DNA of 5,802 nt from positions 1 through 5,802 of the forward strand of contig CAMHKP010000033.1 in assembly GCA_946185785.1 (NCBI GenBank). The letters run 5' to 3'. Both the position numbers and the translations under genes were made by a program. This DNA comes from an uncultured Alphaproteobacteria bacterium (GTDB lineage Bacteria; Pseudomonadota; Alphaproteobacteria; Rs-D84). The notes under the pieces were generated by a model, which was not told where the DNA came from, ran no database searches, and worked only from the letters and a program-made list of their open reading frames with translations. Shown here piece by piece: positions 1,829-5,592 of the stretch. Every line of letters starts with the position of its first letter. The first letter of the stretch is position 1.

Positions 1829-1857
1829 TTGACTTTTGGTGGGAAAATTATTAGAAT
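1829..1857 (+). promoter_or_regulatory. Promoter P1 of the thrS leader (sigma70 type)
   Basis: TTGACT (1829-1834) is followed by a 17-base spacer and TAGAAT (1852-1857), each one base from consensus. The predicted transcription start falls at about 1864-1867, at or within three bases of the ATG of the Thr-rich leader frame. It lies immediately after the upstream terminator. Confidence 0.75.
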
Positions 1858-1866
1858 ACCACTGTT

Positions 1867-1923
1867 ATGTTTAAGAATTTGTTTATTTTCACTACAACTA
1901 CAACAACCCCTGCGGGGGTGTAA
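1867..1923 (+). CDS. Putative threonine leader peptide controlling thrS (18 aa)
   Basis: ATG (1867) to TAA (1921-1923) encodes MFKNLFIFTTTTTTPAGV. The six adjacent Thr codons (ACT ACA ACT ACA ACA ACC, 1891-1908) use three different codons, so this is not a simple trinucleotide repeat. The frame starts within about three bases of the predicted start of transcription from P1 and has no Shine-Dalgarno sequence, so it is probably translated as a leaderless or near-leaderless message. It ends 84 bases before thrS, the gene for threonyl-tRNA synthetase. Leader peptides rich in the regulatory amino acid are known for E. coli thrL (thrABC) and pheM (pheST), and leaderless trpL is known in Sinorhizobium. 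By analogy, shortage of charged tRNA-Thr would stall the ribosome here and change folding of the following hairpin. Sequence and position are seen; the regulatory role is inferred. It could be a chance open frame, but the match of amino acid to downstream gene makes that unlikely. Confidence 0.75.
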   Translation: MFKNLFIFTTTTTTPAGV

Positions 1924-1942
1924 TTTCTATTTGCGCTTTTTT
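1903..1942 (+). promoter_or_regulatory. Candidate attenuator hairpin in the thrS leader
   Basis: CCCC (1907-1910) pairs with GGGG (1915-1918) around a TGCG loop. The stem is extended by A1906-T1919 and, past a bulged A1905, by C1904-G1920 and A1903-T1921. The 5' arm covers the last two Thr codons and the 3' arm the end of the leader frame. The following 1922-1932 is U-rich but imperfect, with a cleaner T6 run at 1937-1942. A ribosome stalled on the Thr codons would cover the 5' arm and block the hairpin. I did not find a convincing separate antiterminator. The hairpin is clear; its activity as a terminator is uncertain because the U tract is poor. Confidence 0.5.
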
Positions 1943-1958
1943 ATGCGCGCGCTATAAT
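1931..1958 (+). promoter_or_regulatory. Possible second thrS promoter P2
   Basis: TTGCGC (1931-1936), a 16-base spacer and a perfect TATAAT (1953-1958) would start transcription near 1965, downstream of the leader peptide and hairpin. If real, it gives thrS a basal supply that bypasses attenuation. The alternating GC tract at 1945-1952 can also pair with GCGC at 1933-1936 in RNA made from P1. Confidence 0.5.
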
Positions 1959-1993
1959 CAAAAAACGAAAATTTAAACAAAACATATAATAAA

Positions 1994-1999
1994 AGAAGG
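1994..1999 (+). promoter_or_regulatory. Ribosome binding site of thrS
   Basis: AGAAGG lies eight bases before the ATG at 2008. It fixes the start of the synthetase and so supports that the missing TGS domain is real and not a mis-called start. Confidence 0.8.
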
Positions 2000-2007
2000 T
2001 ACTTATT

Positions 2008-3741
2008 ATGTCTTATCCAATTGAAACGGTTCGGCATTCGTTGGCGCATGTTATGGCGGCAGCGGTTCAAAAGTTATTTCCAGATGTCAAATTCGCAGGT
2101 GGTCCGGCGATTGAAAATGGGTTCTATTATGACTTTGATACCGAACACAGATTTAGCGAAGAAGATTTCGCAAAGATAGAAAAAGAAATGCGCGAACTGA
2201 TTAAATCAAATGGTCGGTTCGAACAACGCTTTGTTAGTTTAGAAGAAGCAAAAGGTTTGTTCAAATTCCAGCCATACAAAATGGAATGGTTGAACGAATA
2301 TGATGCGGCGGGTGAACAATTGTCGGTTTATACTTTCCGCGACTTTACCGATTTGTGCCGTGGGCCACACGTGGAAAGTTCCAAAGATTTACCACGCGAT
2401 GGGTTCAAGATTCGCAACGTTGCCGGTGCATACTGGAAGGGTGATGCGAAAAACAAAATGTTGCAACGTATCTATGTTGACGCATTTTTAACCAAAGAAG
2501 ATTTGGAACAGTTCTTAAAGATGCAGGAAGAAGCCGCACAACGCGATAATCGTAAACTGGGTAAAGATATGGATTTGTTCCATTTTGAACCAGAATATGC
2601 CCCAGGTGCAGTGTTCTGGCACAATAATGGTTATCGTATTTATCGCAAACTTATTGATTATTTGCGTGCACGTCAAGAACGTGCTGGATATCTTGAAATA
2701 TCAACACCGTCAATTATGGATCGTTGTTTGTGGGAACGTAGCGGCCACTGGGCTAAATATGGTGCACATAATTATTCTGGAAAAACCCAAGATGGAAAAA
2801 CGTTCTGTGTAAAACCGATGTCTTGTCCAGGGGGAATGTTGGTGTTTGGTCAGGGTATTAAATCGTATAAAGATTTGCCGTTGTATTTGGCTGAATTCGG
2901 CAAAGTTTGTCGTTATGAAGCCGCGGGCGGCTTATCGGGCTTGATGCGTGTTCGCGAATTTACCCAAGACGATGCTCACATTTTCTGTACAGAAGAACAA
3001 TTGGAAGAAGAGGTCGTCAAAATCTTGCGCTTTATTAAAGATATTTATGGCAAGTTTGGTTTTGACAAGATTTCAATGAAATTGGCAACGCGTCCAAATT
3101 CAGAATTCCGTATTGGGTCTGATGAGGTTTGGGATAAAGCCGAAGGTGCATTGAAACATGCGCTGGATGCAAATGGTATTGAATACGAAATCGCTGAAGG
3201 TGATGCTGCATTCTATGGTCCAAAAATCGATAATTATTTAAAAGATTCAATGGGTCGTGTGTGGCAATGTGGAACGGTTCAATTGGATATGAATTTGCCA
3301 GAACGTTTTGACTTATCTTATGTTGGCGAAGATGGTGAAAAACATCGTCCAATTATGTTGCATCGTGCATTGTTGGGATCCATTGAACGCTTTATGGGTG
3401 TGTTGCTGGAATCAACGGGTGGTAATTTGCCATTGTGGTTATCGCCAGAACCAGTTGTCGTGACGCCAATTTCTGAAAAGCAGGCGGATTATGCAAACGA
3501 AGTGGTAAGCGCACTGCGTGCGGCGGGCGTATATTGTCGTGCTGATTTGCGTGACGAAAAAGTGAATTACAAGATTCGCGAATTGTCGTTGGCAAAAACG
3601 CCAATTATCGCCGTCGTTGGTGATAAAGAAGCAGCCGATAAAGCGGTGACGTTGCGTCGTCTGGGTGTTGAAAAGCAAGAAACGAAATCACTTGATGCGT
3701 TTGTTGCAGAAATGGCGGATGCAATTAAAATGCCATTATAA
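2008..3741 (+). CDS. thrS: Threonyl-tRNA synthetase, short form lacking the TGS domain
   Basis: Cytoplasmic class II synthetase that charges tRNA-Thr with threonine. The 577-residue product compares with 642 in E. coli. It begins at the editing (N2) domain, whose HxxxH (H10, H14) and CxxxH (C117, H121) residues are intact, so removal of mischarged Ser is expected. The catalytic core follows (about 185-480), with zinc and threonine ligands C273, H324 and H452 aligning to C334, H385 and H511 of E. coli at an offset of about 60. The anticodon-binding domain is at the C terminus (about 480-577). The N-terminal TGS domain is absent: the upstream bases hold a promoter and leader, and AGAAGG precedes this ATG. 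Variant core motifs are SCPGGM where the E. coli enzyme has NCPGH, and RYEAAGGLSG for RNEPSGSLHG. Two stop codons follow in tandem. Expression is probably controlled by the upstream Thr-rich leader. Confidence 0.97.
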   Translation: MSYPIETVRHSLAHVMAAAVQKLFPDVKFAGGPAIENGFYYDFDTEHRFSEEDFAKIEKEMRELIKSNGRFEQRFVSLEEAKGLFKFQPYKMEWLNEYDAAGEQLSVYTFRDFTDLCRGPHVESSKDLPRDGFKIRNVAGAYWKGDAKNKMLQRIYVDAFLTKEDLEQFLKMQEEAAQRDNRKLGKDMDLFHFEPEYAPGAVFWHNNGYRIYRKLIDYLRARQERAGYLEISTPSIMDRCLWERSGHWAKYGAHNYSGKTQDGKTFCVKPMSCPGGMLVFGQGIKSYKDLPLYLAEFGKVCRYEAAGGLSGLMRVREFTQDDAHIFCTEEQLEEEVVKILRFIKDIYGKFGFDKISMKLATRPNSEFRIGSDEVWDKAEGALKHALDANGIEYEIAEGDAAFYGPKIDNYLKDSMGRVWQCGTVQLDMNLPERFDLSYVGEDGEKHRPIMLHRALLGSIERFMGVLLESTGGNLPLWLSPEPVVVTPISEKQADYANEVVSALRAAGVYCRADLRDEKVNYKIRELSLAKTPIIAVVGDKEAADKAVTLRRLGVEKQETKSLDAFVAEMADAIKMPL

Positions 3742-5120: not shown

Positions 5121-5134
5121 AAATATTTAACAAT

Positions 5135-5162
5135 AAAAAAACGCGCCATTGGCGCGTTTTTT
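5135..5162. terminator. Bidirectional intrinsic terminator between tatA and dksA
   Basis: CGCGCC (5142-5147) pairs with GGCGCG (5151-5156) across a 3-base loop. It is flanked by seven As on the left (5135-5141) and six Ts on the right (5157-5162), so it has a U tract in both directions. It serves both convergent units; the last Ts overlap the dksA stop codon. Confidence 0.93.
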
Positions 5163-5592
5163 ATTCTTTACGTTGTTCGTATTCTTCCTGTTCTTCGATC
5201 GTCATGGTGGCCAGTGGTCGTGCCAACATACGCTGAAGCCCAATTTCATCACCAGATACAACACTGTAGCCGTATGTGCCGTCATCAATGCGTGCCAATG
5301 CAGCATCAATCTTGCGCATAAGATTGCTGTCGCGCTGGCTCATACGCAGATTTAATGTAATTTGCTGTTCCAGTGTTGCGCTGTCTGAATCATCACCAAC
5401 ACCGTCCGATGCAGATTTATCAGCCATACGAACAGAATTCAACACAGAATCAGATGAATTTAACAGTTCCTGTTTTTGAGCAGTTAACAAATGATAAAAA
5501 TACGCCAATTGTTCTGGGCACATATATGGCTCAGACTTTTTTGGAACATACTTTTGTGGTAATTCAATATTTTTATAATCTTTCTTTGCCAT
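5161..5592 (-). CDS. dksA: DksA/TraR-family RNA polymerase regulator lacking zinc-site cysteines
   Basis: DksA binds the secondary channel of RNA polymerase and, with ppGpp, retunes rRNA and amino-acid promoters during starvation. The 143-residue product matches the family throughout: an N-terminal segment with LPQKYVPKKSEPYM, two long helices forming the coiled coil with the tip motif DxxDxA (D67, D70, A72), then RKIDAALARIDDGTYGY and the globular IGLQRMLARPLAT. The four positions that hold zinc cysteines in E. coli DksA are S110, S113, T131 and E134, so no metal site remains; the only Cys is C25. From memory, many alphaproteobacterial DksA proteins keep two of the four. The tip aspartates needed for activity are present, so it is probably functional. 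AAAGG (5602-5606 on the complement) lies nine bases before the start, inside the end of the thioredoxin gene. One base separates the two genes, implying translational coupling. Confidence 0.9.
   Translation of the reverse strand: MAKKDYKNIELPQKYVPKKSEPYMCPEQLAYFYHLLTAQKQELLNSSDSVLNSVRMADKSASDGVGDDSDSATLEQQITLNLRMSQRDSNLMRKIDAALARIDDGTYGYSVVSGDEIGLQRMLARPLATMTIEEQEEYEQRKE

Follow-up and report, generated by a model that had tools for sequence, protein, structure and literature searches.

The locus described here raises the question of why a gene for threonyl-tRNA synthetase (thrS) should be preceded by a short reading frame with six consecutive threonine codons, and whether reading of that frame controls the gene. 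It lies in a window of 5,802 nucleotides (nt), the whole stretch of DNA that was analyzed, which constitutes contig 33 in a genome assembly of 0.56 Mb (70% complete) from the genus of Candidatus Enterousia (Alphaproteobacteria, GTDB order Rs-D84, an order name also used in the sections of PMC12306168 consulted). These bacteria live in the gut, and their genomes are very small. Our comparative analysis identifies the frame as a conserved leader whose codon run matches the enzyme encoded downstream. With moderate confidence, we propose that the thrS leader is a ribosome-read sensor of charged tRNA-Thr, through which a drop in charging would increase thrS expression.

The promoter-like sequence, the 18-codon frame, its six Thr codons, the hairpin and thrS were all found on the plus strand at the places claimed in the initial annotation. 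The predicted promoter P1 (positions 1829-1857) combines a -35 box, TTGACT (1829-1834), a 17-nt spacer and a -10 box, TAGAAT (1852-1857), with 10/12 matches. The leader peptide frame, MFKNLFIFTTTTTTPAGV (1867-1923), begins with an ATG at 1867, 9 nt past the -10 box, and ends with TAA at 1921-1923. The six Thr codons read from the sequence (ACT ACA ACT ACA ACA ACC) occupy positions 1891-1908, and a hairpin, hp1, ACCCC-UGCG-GGGGU (1906-1919), starts its 5' arm in the last of them and ends its 3' arm directly before the stop codon, with a predicted energy of -9.9 kcal/mol (as a 17-mer). Downstream of hp1 lies an A/U-rich linker with a poor U-tract, UAAUUUCUAUU (1921-1931), followed by two elements that the earlier list had omitted: a conserved second hairpin, hp2, UGCGC-UUUUUUAU-GCGCG (1932-1949), whose arms covary across leaders, and a second promoter-like element, P2 (1931-1958), predicted from TTGCGC (1931-1936) and TATAAT (1953-1958) at a spacing of 16 nt, which overlaps hp2. 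The thrS gene itself (2008-3741, ATG at 2008) encodes a threonine--tRNA ligase (ThrRS) of 577 amino acids, with a TIGR00418 score of 669 bits (cut-off 384) and the Pfam domains PF00587, PF03129 and PF07973; no TGS domain was matched in the Pfam search of this product.

A first sample of the genus contained the frame in 29/29 thrS loci (30 were fetched, one without upstream DNA). In the order-wide set, from which locus L014 had been removed before counting for want of upstream DNA, 109 loci were oriented and five were dropped since their start motif was not found (L073, L096, L098, L100 and L107); a leader is present by eye at L073, and no Thr-rich ATG frame was found at the other four. A Thr-run leader lies upstream of thrS in 93 of the 104 loci analyzed, namely in 70/70 of the genus, 16/23 of other genera of the family, and 7/11 of other families. 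The initial annotation had named a lack of conservation in relatives among the outcomes that would speak against it; this comparison was run, and the Thr frame proved to be conserved despite nucleotide divergence. The 93 leaders, which were picked by a Thr motif, hold 4-7 Thr among their last eleven residues in 88 cases, and their runs vary synonymously at the third base with the amino acid kept (ACA 232, ACT 107, ACG 37 and ACC 26 among the Thr codons upstream of the last one). Outside the order, a short Thr-rich frame (4 or more Thr codons out of 6) was present at one of 53 named alphaproteobacterial thrS loci (L175-L227, 49-52% identity), and this lone match, L193, is not convincing. A strict DNA pattern matched 3/289 genomes of the class, all within the genus and one of them that of the window.

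Two observations concern the enzymes downstream of these leaders. Seven loci of the order encode a ThrRS frame of about 645-660 amino acids; six of them show no Thr leader (L095, L096, L098, L100, L107, and L103, which has little upstream DNA), and L104 is the exception, with a Thr leader present. At three loci of the genus (L089, L090 and L091, in genomes G044, G127 and G151), ThrRS has diverged to 54-55% identity with that of the window and the same kind of leader is kept. There the gene seems to have been exchanged while the leader stayed or travelled along, which fits a leader that senses tRNA, not protein.

In 93/93 leaders, the first G/C pair of hp1 coincides with the second base of the final Thr codon, and hairpins of other sequence with a like geometry by eye take its place at L068 (CGCC/GGCG), L097 (ACCC/GGGT) and L366 (ACCGC/GCGGT), the last at a second thrS-like gene (thrS2). 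Because the 93 leaders had been selected by a Thr motif, we also ran an amino-acid-blind rule, which asks for a frame and a hairpin. This rule found both in 92 of 101 regions upstream of thrS and in 0/160 shuffled ones; in these candidates, 80% of the last six codons up to the hairpin are Thr, and the hairpin begins at codon position 2 in 86/92. A chance origin of the Thr leader is ruled out by its conservation taken together with this result. At the window locus itself, the blind rule ranked another frame first, namely the last part of the preceding gene together with its terminator. Upstream of serS, the rule returned candidates at 38 of 59 loci, with Ser at 53% of the six codons and codon position 2 in 35/38; nine of the 59 loci had been preselected by an RNA model, and the other 50 came from a protein search (the 30 best-ranked and 20 hand-picked from 116 genomes with a match). 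Other synthetase genes and rho gave 5/24 loci, two of them hisS.

The RNA model, built from hp1, the linker and P2, matched 60 of 68 genomes of the family at E up to 1. Eighteen further matches were read, of which 12 lie upstream of serS, one upstream of thrS and five at unrelated places (L238, L242-L245), and most of those upstream of serS carry Ser runs, such as MKFKVIVFLSSSSPVGE. The bases flanking CCCC/GGGG in the hairpin are A...U in 82 of the 93 Thr leaders; in 36 Ser leaders they are U...A (16) or U...U (18), which amounts to compensation of the last pair in roughly half of the Ser set. At hisS, a His codon stands against a hairpin of different sequence in 6/6 loci read (L353, L355, L371-L374), the codons being HH in four and NH and VH in the remaining two, and the frame in G091 begins with GTG. 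A second ThrRS-like gene with a short N-terminus was observed in G008, G025 and G060 (L364, L365 and L366), each copy with its own Thr leader; all three of these leaders read TTTT(T)A-stop, and the stop codon falls within the loop of their hairpins, which are of different sequence. One serS, one hisS and one thrS2 gene were checked against NCBIfam, and the other genes are labelled by similarity. In the complete genome G091, of which about 40% was scanned with a leaderless-plus-hairpin rule, 11 candidates were found, and the three with a P1 score of at least 9 are exactly thrS, serS and hisS, in a scan in which 3 of the 20 stretches had been chosen because they hold these genes. At alaS, proS-like and glyS-like genes (labels by eye), no cognate run was found in up to 7 genomes. 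A loose hairpin pattern matched many terminator-like sites and was dropped.

The agreement between the amino acid of the run and the enzyme (Thr at thrS, Ser at serS, His at hisS and Thr at thrS2) supports the leader as a cognate sensor, and the Thr-codon leader peptide that the initial annotation tied to thrS is thus sustained by its conservation, its framing and this tracking of the enzyme in relatives. The same observations bear on an action of the leader RNA or peptide in trans, with thrS itself driven by P2. A precedent is the trp attenuator of Sinorhizobium meliloti, whose RNA and peptide are reported to act in trans. Its trpL leader frame is leaderless, according to the passages of PMC10117765 consulted, so the form predicted for the thrS leader is a known one there. 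We nevertheless regard an action in trans as very improbable, given that the run changes its amino acid with the adjacent gene, and that the peptide end Pro-X-Gly-Val is dictated by the hairpin and not by the peptide, as seen at L093 and in the thrS2 leaders, which stop inside the loop.

How a charging sensor could work follows from its predicted start and its geometry. The start codon lies 6-10 nt past the best-scoring -10 box in 77/93 leaders, with 5' ends predicted from the sequence, and because it follows that box so closely the frame is predicted to be leaderless. A P1 of at least 9/12 matches with an ATG 6-10 nt past its -10 box is present in 85/93 leaders vs 3.3% of shuffled regions, and the P1 spacer is 17 in 81/93. 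The RNA from P1 would thus start at or within a few nt of the leader AUG, and a ribosome decoding the Thr run would have its leading edge on or in hp1. The geometry of the ribosome is the basis for expecting that one held on the run keeps hp1 open, which it would do because the run abuts the hairpin at thrS, serS and hisS. When charged tRNA-Thr is scarce, the ribosome would linger, hp1 would be kept open, and polymerase from P1 would run into thrS. With ample Thr, the ribosome would complete the frame, whose stop codon adjoins hp1, and leave, allowing hp1 to form; transcription from P1 would then be halted or paused before thrS, and basal expression would be left to P2.

We extend this proposal to the order as a possibility, plausible though short of probable: Rs-D84 may share a module of leaderless mini-genes, in each of which codons for a single amino acid run up to a framed hairpin, and which gate polymerase into the matching synthetase genes (thrS, serS, hisS and thrS2), from a regulated promoter across a basal one, as a charging sensor that works without terminator or antiterminator.

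The region between leader and gene is itself conserved. Since MAFFT left the 3' arm of hp2 unaligned, hp2 was tested by arm matching, with six of the 93 leaders set aside for lack of a TTGY anchor; four perfectly complementary base pairs were found in 68 of 87 leaders (79 with G-U pairs), vs shuffle means of 1.7 (21 with G-U) and 9.6% (43% with G-U) when arms were exchanged between species. A P2 of the form TTG-16/17-TATAAT, with at least 5 of 6 matches, follows 82 of 93 leaders (shuffles: mean 2.3, maximum 7). At L035 and L053, the DNA upstream of thrS keeps the leader and hp1 but has, in place of hp2 and P2, another stretch that is similar between these two loci. The position of P2 invites an explanation by promoter interference, according to which a P1 polymerase paused by hp1 would sit on the -35 box of P2 or overrun it, and leader translation would regulate the firing of P2, not read-through. 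The TTG of P2 does come close after the leader stop (7 nt between them in the window), its spacing is held at 16-17 in 81/87 although the hp2 loop ranges from 3 to 9, and TGnTATAAT follows the leader in 6/6 hisS loci read. Spacing alone, however, is no proof that P2 is occluded, and the element is patchy at serS, where several loci have none that we found or have it further from the leader; we therefore judge this interference improbable.

The sensor that we favor differs from an attenuator of the classical kind. The thr, his and phe operons of enterobacteria, and pheST with its leader pheM, place a cognate run at the 5' arm of a hairpin and add a terminator with a U-tract and an antiterminator. 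The Rs-D84 leader resembles them in the short frame with its cognate codon run at the hairpin arm upstream of the gene, and departs from them in that neither a terminator nor an antiterminator was found. An intrinsic terminator score above 0 was reached by hp1 in 1/93 leaders and by hp2 in 0/93; hp1 with its tail scores -3.0 in the window, with a median of -13 over the 93 leaders, and two real terminators in the window reach +35 and +48 under the same scoring. The window value lies between the 95th (-17.8) and 99th (+5.7) percentiles of 300 random places in the window. Folding of an alignment of 68 genus leaders gave hp1 and hp2 only and no mutually exclusive antiterminator; the best fold contains three more long-range pairs, each with a probability under 0.3. 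Classical transcription attenuation, as proposed in the initial annotation, is therefore not borne out: there is no canonical terminator and no antiterminator, and P2 stands between leader and gene. The contiguous codons of one amino acid near the frame end, as expected of the leaderless type of attenuator, are present.

The same lack of a canonical intrinsic terminator, together with a rho gene in 7/8 genomes examined, that of the window included, would agree with termination by Rho. Here the C-rich, G-poor Thr stretch would load Rho when left bare, and the transcript would then end near hp1 and hp2; a ribosome held on the run would mask it and let P1 RNA reach thrS. This explanation overlaps with the tRNA-Thr sensor in its sensing step. 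We consider it unlikely, since runs of Ser codons (UCN) or a pair of His codons make a different and shorter C-rich stretch, and the hairpin is the constant part. The folding also bears on control at the level of translation, in which the pyrimidine-rich Phe codons of the leader would pair with the Shine-Dalgarno region of thrS unless a stalled ribosome covers them. Such pairing is strong in some species (for example at L012, L017 and L018), but it coevolves little over 91 loci, where the share of non-cognate partners with equal or better pairing averages 48% (permutation P 0.03), and the alignment yields nothing beyond hp1 and hp2 above probability 0.3, which makes this mechanism highly unlikely.

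A T-box riboswitch was rejected for positions 1829-2010 in the absence of any Rfam match at E up to 1, and the Rfam family Thr_leader (RF00506) had no match at the locus, its only match being below threshold at 5132-5237 on the minus strand. At the gathering threshold, Rfam also returned nothing in seven further stretches chosen for serS, hisS or thrS2 leaders, one of which (L395) was misplaced and holds no leader. In the translational operator of E. coli thrS, hairpins that resemble tRNA-Thr are bound by ThrRS near the start codon; no anticodon-like loop is evident by eye in hp1 or hp2.

Several observations weigh against a sensor of charged tRNA-Thr acting on read-through. A ribosome that has reached the stop codon still covers hp1, and therefore the replete state needs prompt release. 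P2 lies between leader and gene, so that thrS may be independent of the leader transcript, and P2 could render the P1 transcript unimportant. Moreover, hp1 is no canonical terminator, and no competing fold was found. In 11 of the 104 loci of the order, thrS is without a Thr leader, and absences include 4/4 g4 loci and 3/7 f4 loci. At serS, the runs are shorter and more broken than the Thr runs, and among the 50 loci from the protein search, 29 have a blind candidate, 4 of which are not Ser-rich. A Ser leader is present at serS in many members of the genus but not in the window's own genome (L306, G000:C59:680-1400), nor at a second SerRS-like gene in G005 (L341, G005:C8).

In the literature searched, which lay mostly outside subscription journals, we found no alphaproteobacterial leader of this kind for either thrS or serS; attenuators of proteobacteria were reportedly surveyed by comparative means in Vitreschak 2004. 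The closest counterpart is thrL of Streptomyces lividans, which, as presented in the sections of PMC8079986 consulted, is, like that of Rs-D84, a Thr leader directly upstream of thrS with one hairpin and no uridine-rich tract, and is leaderless, as predicted for the latter. It contains two Thr (MKRVRPFLETTPGFVPAR), was described in one species, and is given no comparative support in those sections, whereas the Rs-D84 leader has 4-7 Thr, an hp1 framed on the last of them, an order-wide distribution, counterparts at serS and hisS, and P2 in addition. The novelty that the initial annotation saw in a Thr leader on thrS is accordingly reduced by the two-Thr leader already reported, and what is new is the variant described here.

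The remaining comparisons likewise rest on the consulted parts of each source. The mycobacterial attenuators with leaderless poly-cysteine short open reading frames (Canestrari 2020, as described in PMC9031893) share the contiguous codons of the sensed amino acid, and have the leaderless start and the downstream expression that follows its availability which are predicted here; they sense Cys in mycobacteria, whereas the Rs-D84 leaders combine synthetase genes, a matching run and a hairpin in fixed frame. In Sinorhizobium meliloti, a leader named SEP5 has been suggested, which precedes an aspartate dehydrogenase gene and contains six Thr and three Lys codons (PMC10117765). SEP5 is also a Thr-rich short frame in the 5' untranslated region of an alphaproteobacterial gene, but that gene is related to biosynthesis, the Thr codons of SEP5 are mixed with Lys, and SEP5 is conserved in Sinorhizobium only. 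In bacilli, His leader peptides were found upstream of hisS paralogs through an analysis of premature terminators (PMC2965389); they too put a leader with His codons before the gene for histidyl-tRNA synthetase or its paralog, yet they belong to Firmicutes, and the Rs-D84 leaders lack a canonical terminator at thrS and form a multi-synthetase module. The trpS and leuS attenuators of Streptomyces (PMC1262725) also provide synthetase genes with cognate leaders, but are described as classical attenuators.

Bacteria of Rs-D84 are reported, in the sections of PMC12306168 consulted, to be without amino-acid biosynthesis pathways and standard amino-acid transporters, and the usual targets of leader-peptide control are therefore gone. 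Conserved leaders on synthetase genes would suggest that ribosomal sensing of amino acids persists after the biosynthetic operons are lost and shifts to the charging of tRNA itself. The trio of thrS, serS and hisS constitutes a natural swap experiment, in which frame and hairpin geometry are alike and codons and enzyme differ, and the thrS leader offers a compact test of leader control, as it has a single framed hairpin, a start predicted to be leaderless and no terminator of the canonical kind.

Elsewhere in the window, a DksA-like protein is encoded at 5161-5592 on the minus strand, with a zinc-finger match under the Pfam cut-off. Upstream of the leader, positions 2-1825 hold an open-ended frame of 607 amino acids, rich in Gly, Thr, Ser and Asn and without a match in Pfam. 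This frame is ended by a strong terminator near 1795-1815, the sequence of which is repeated at three other places in the genome with 86-93% identity.

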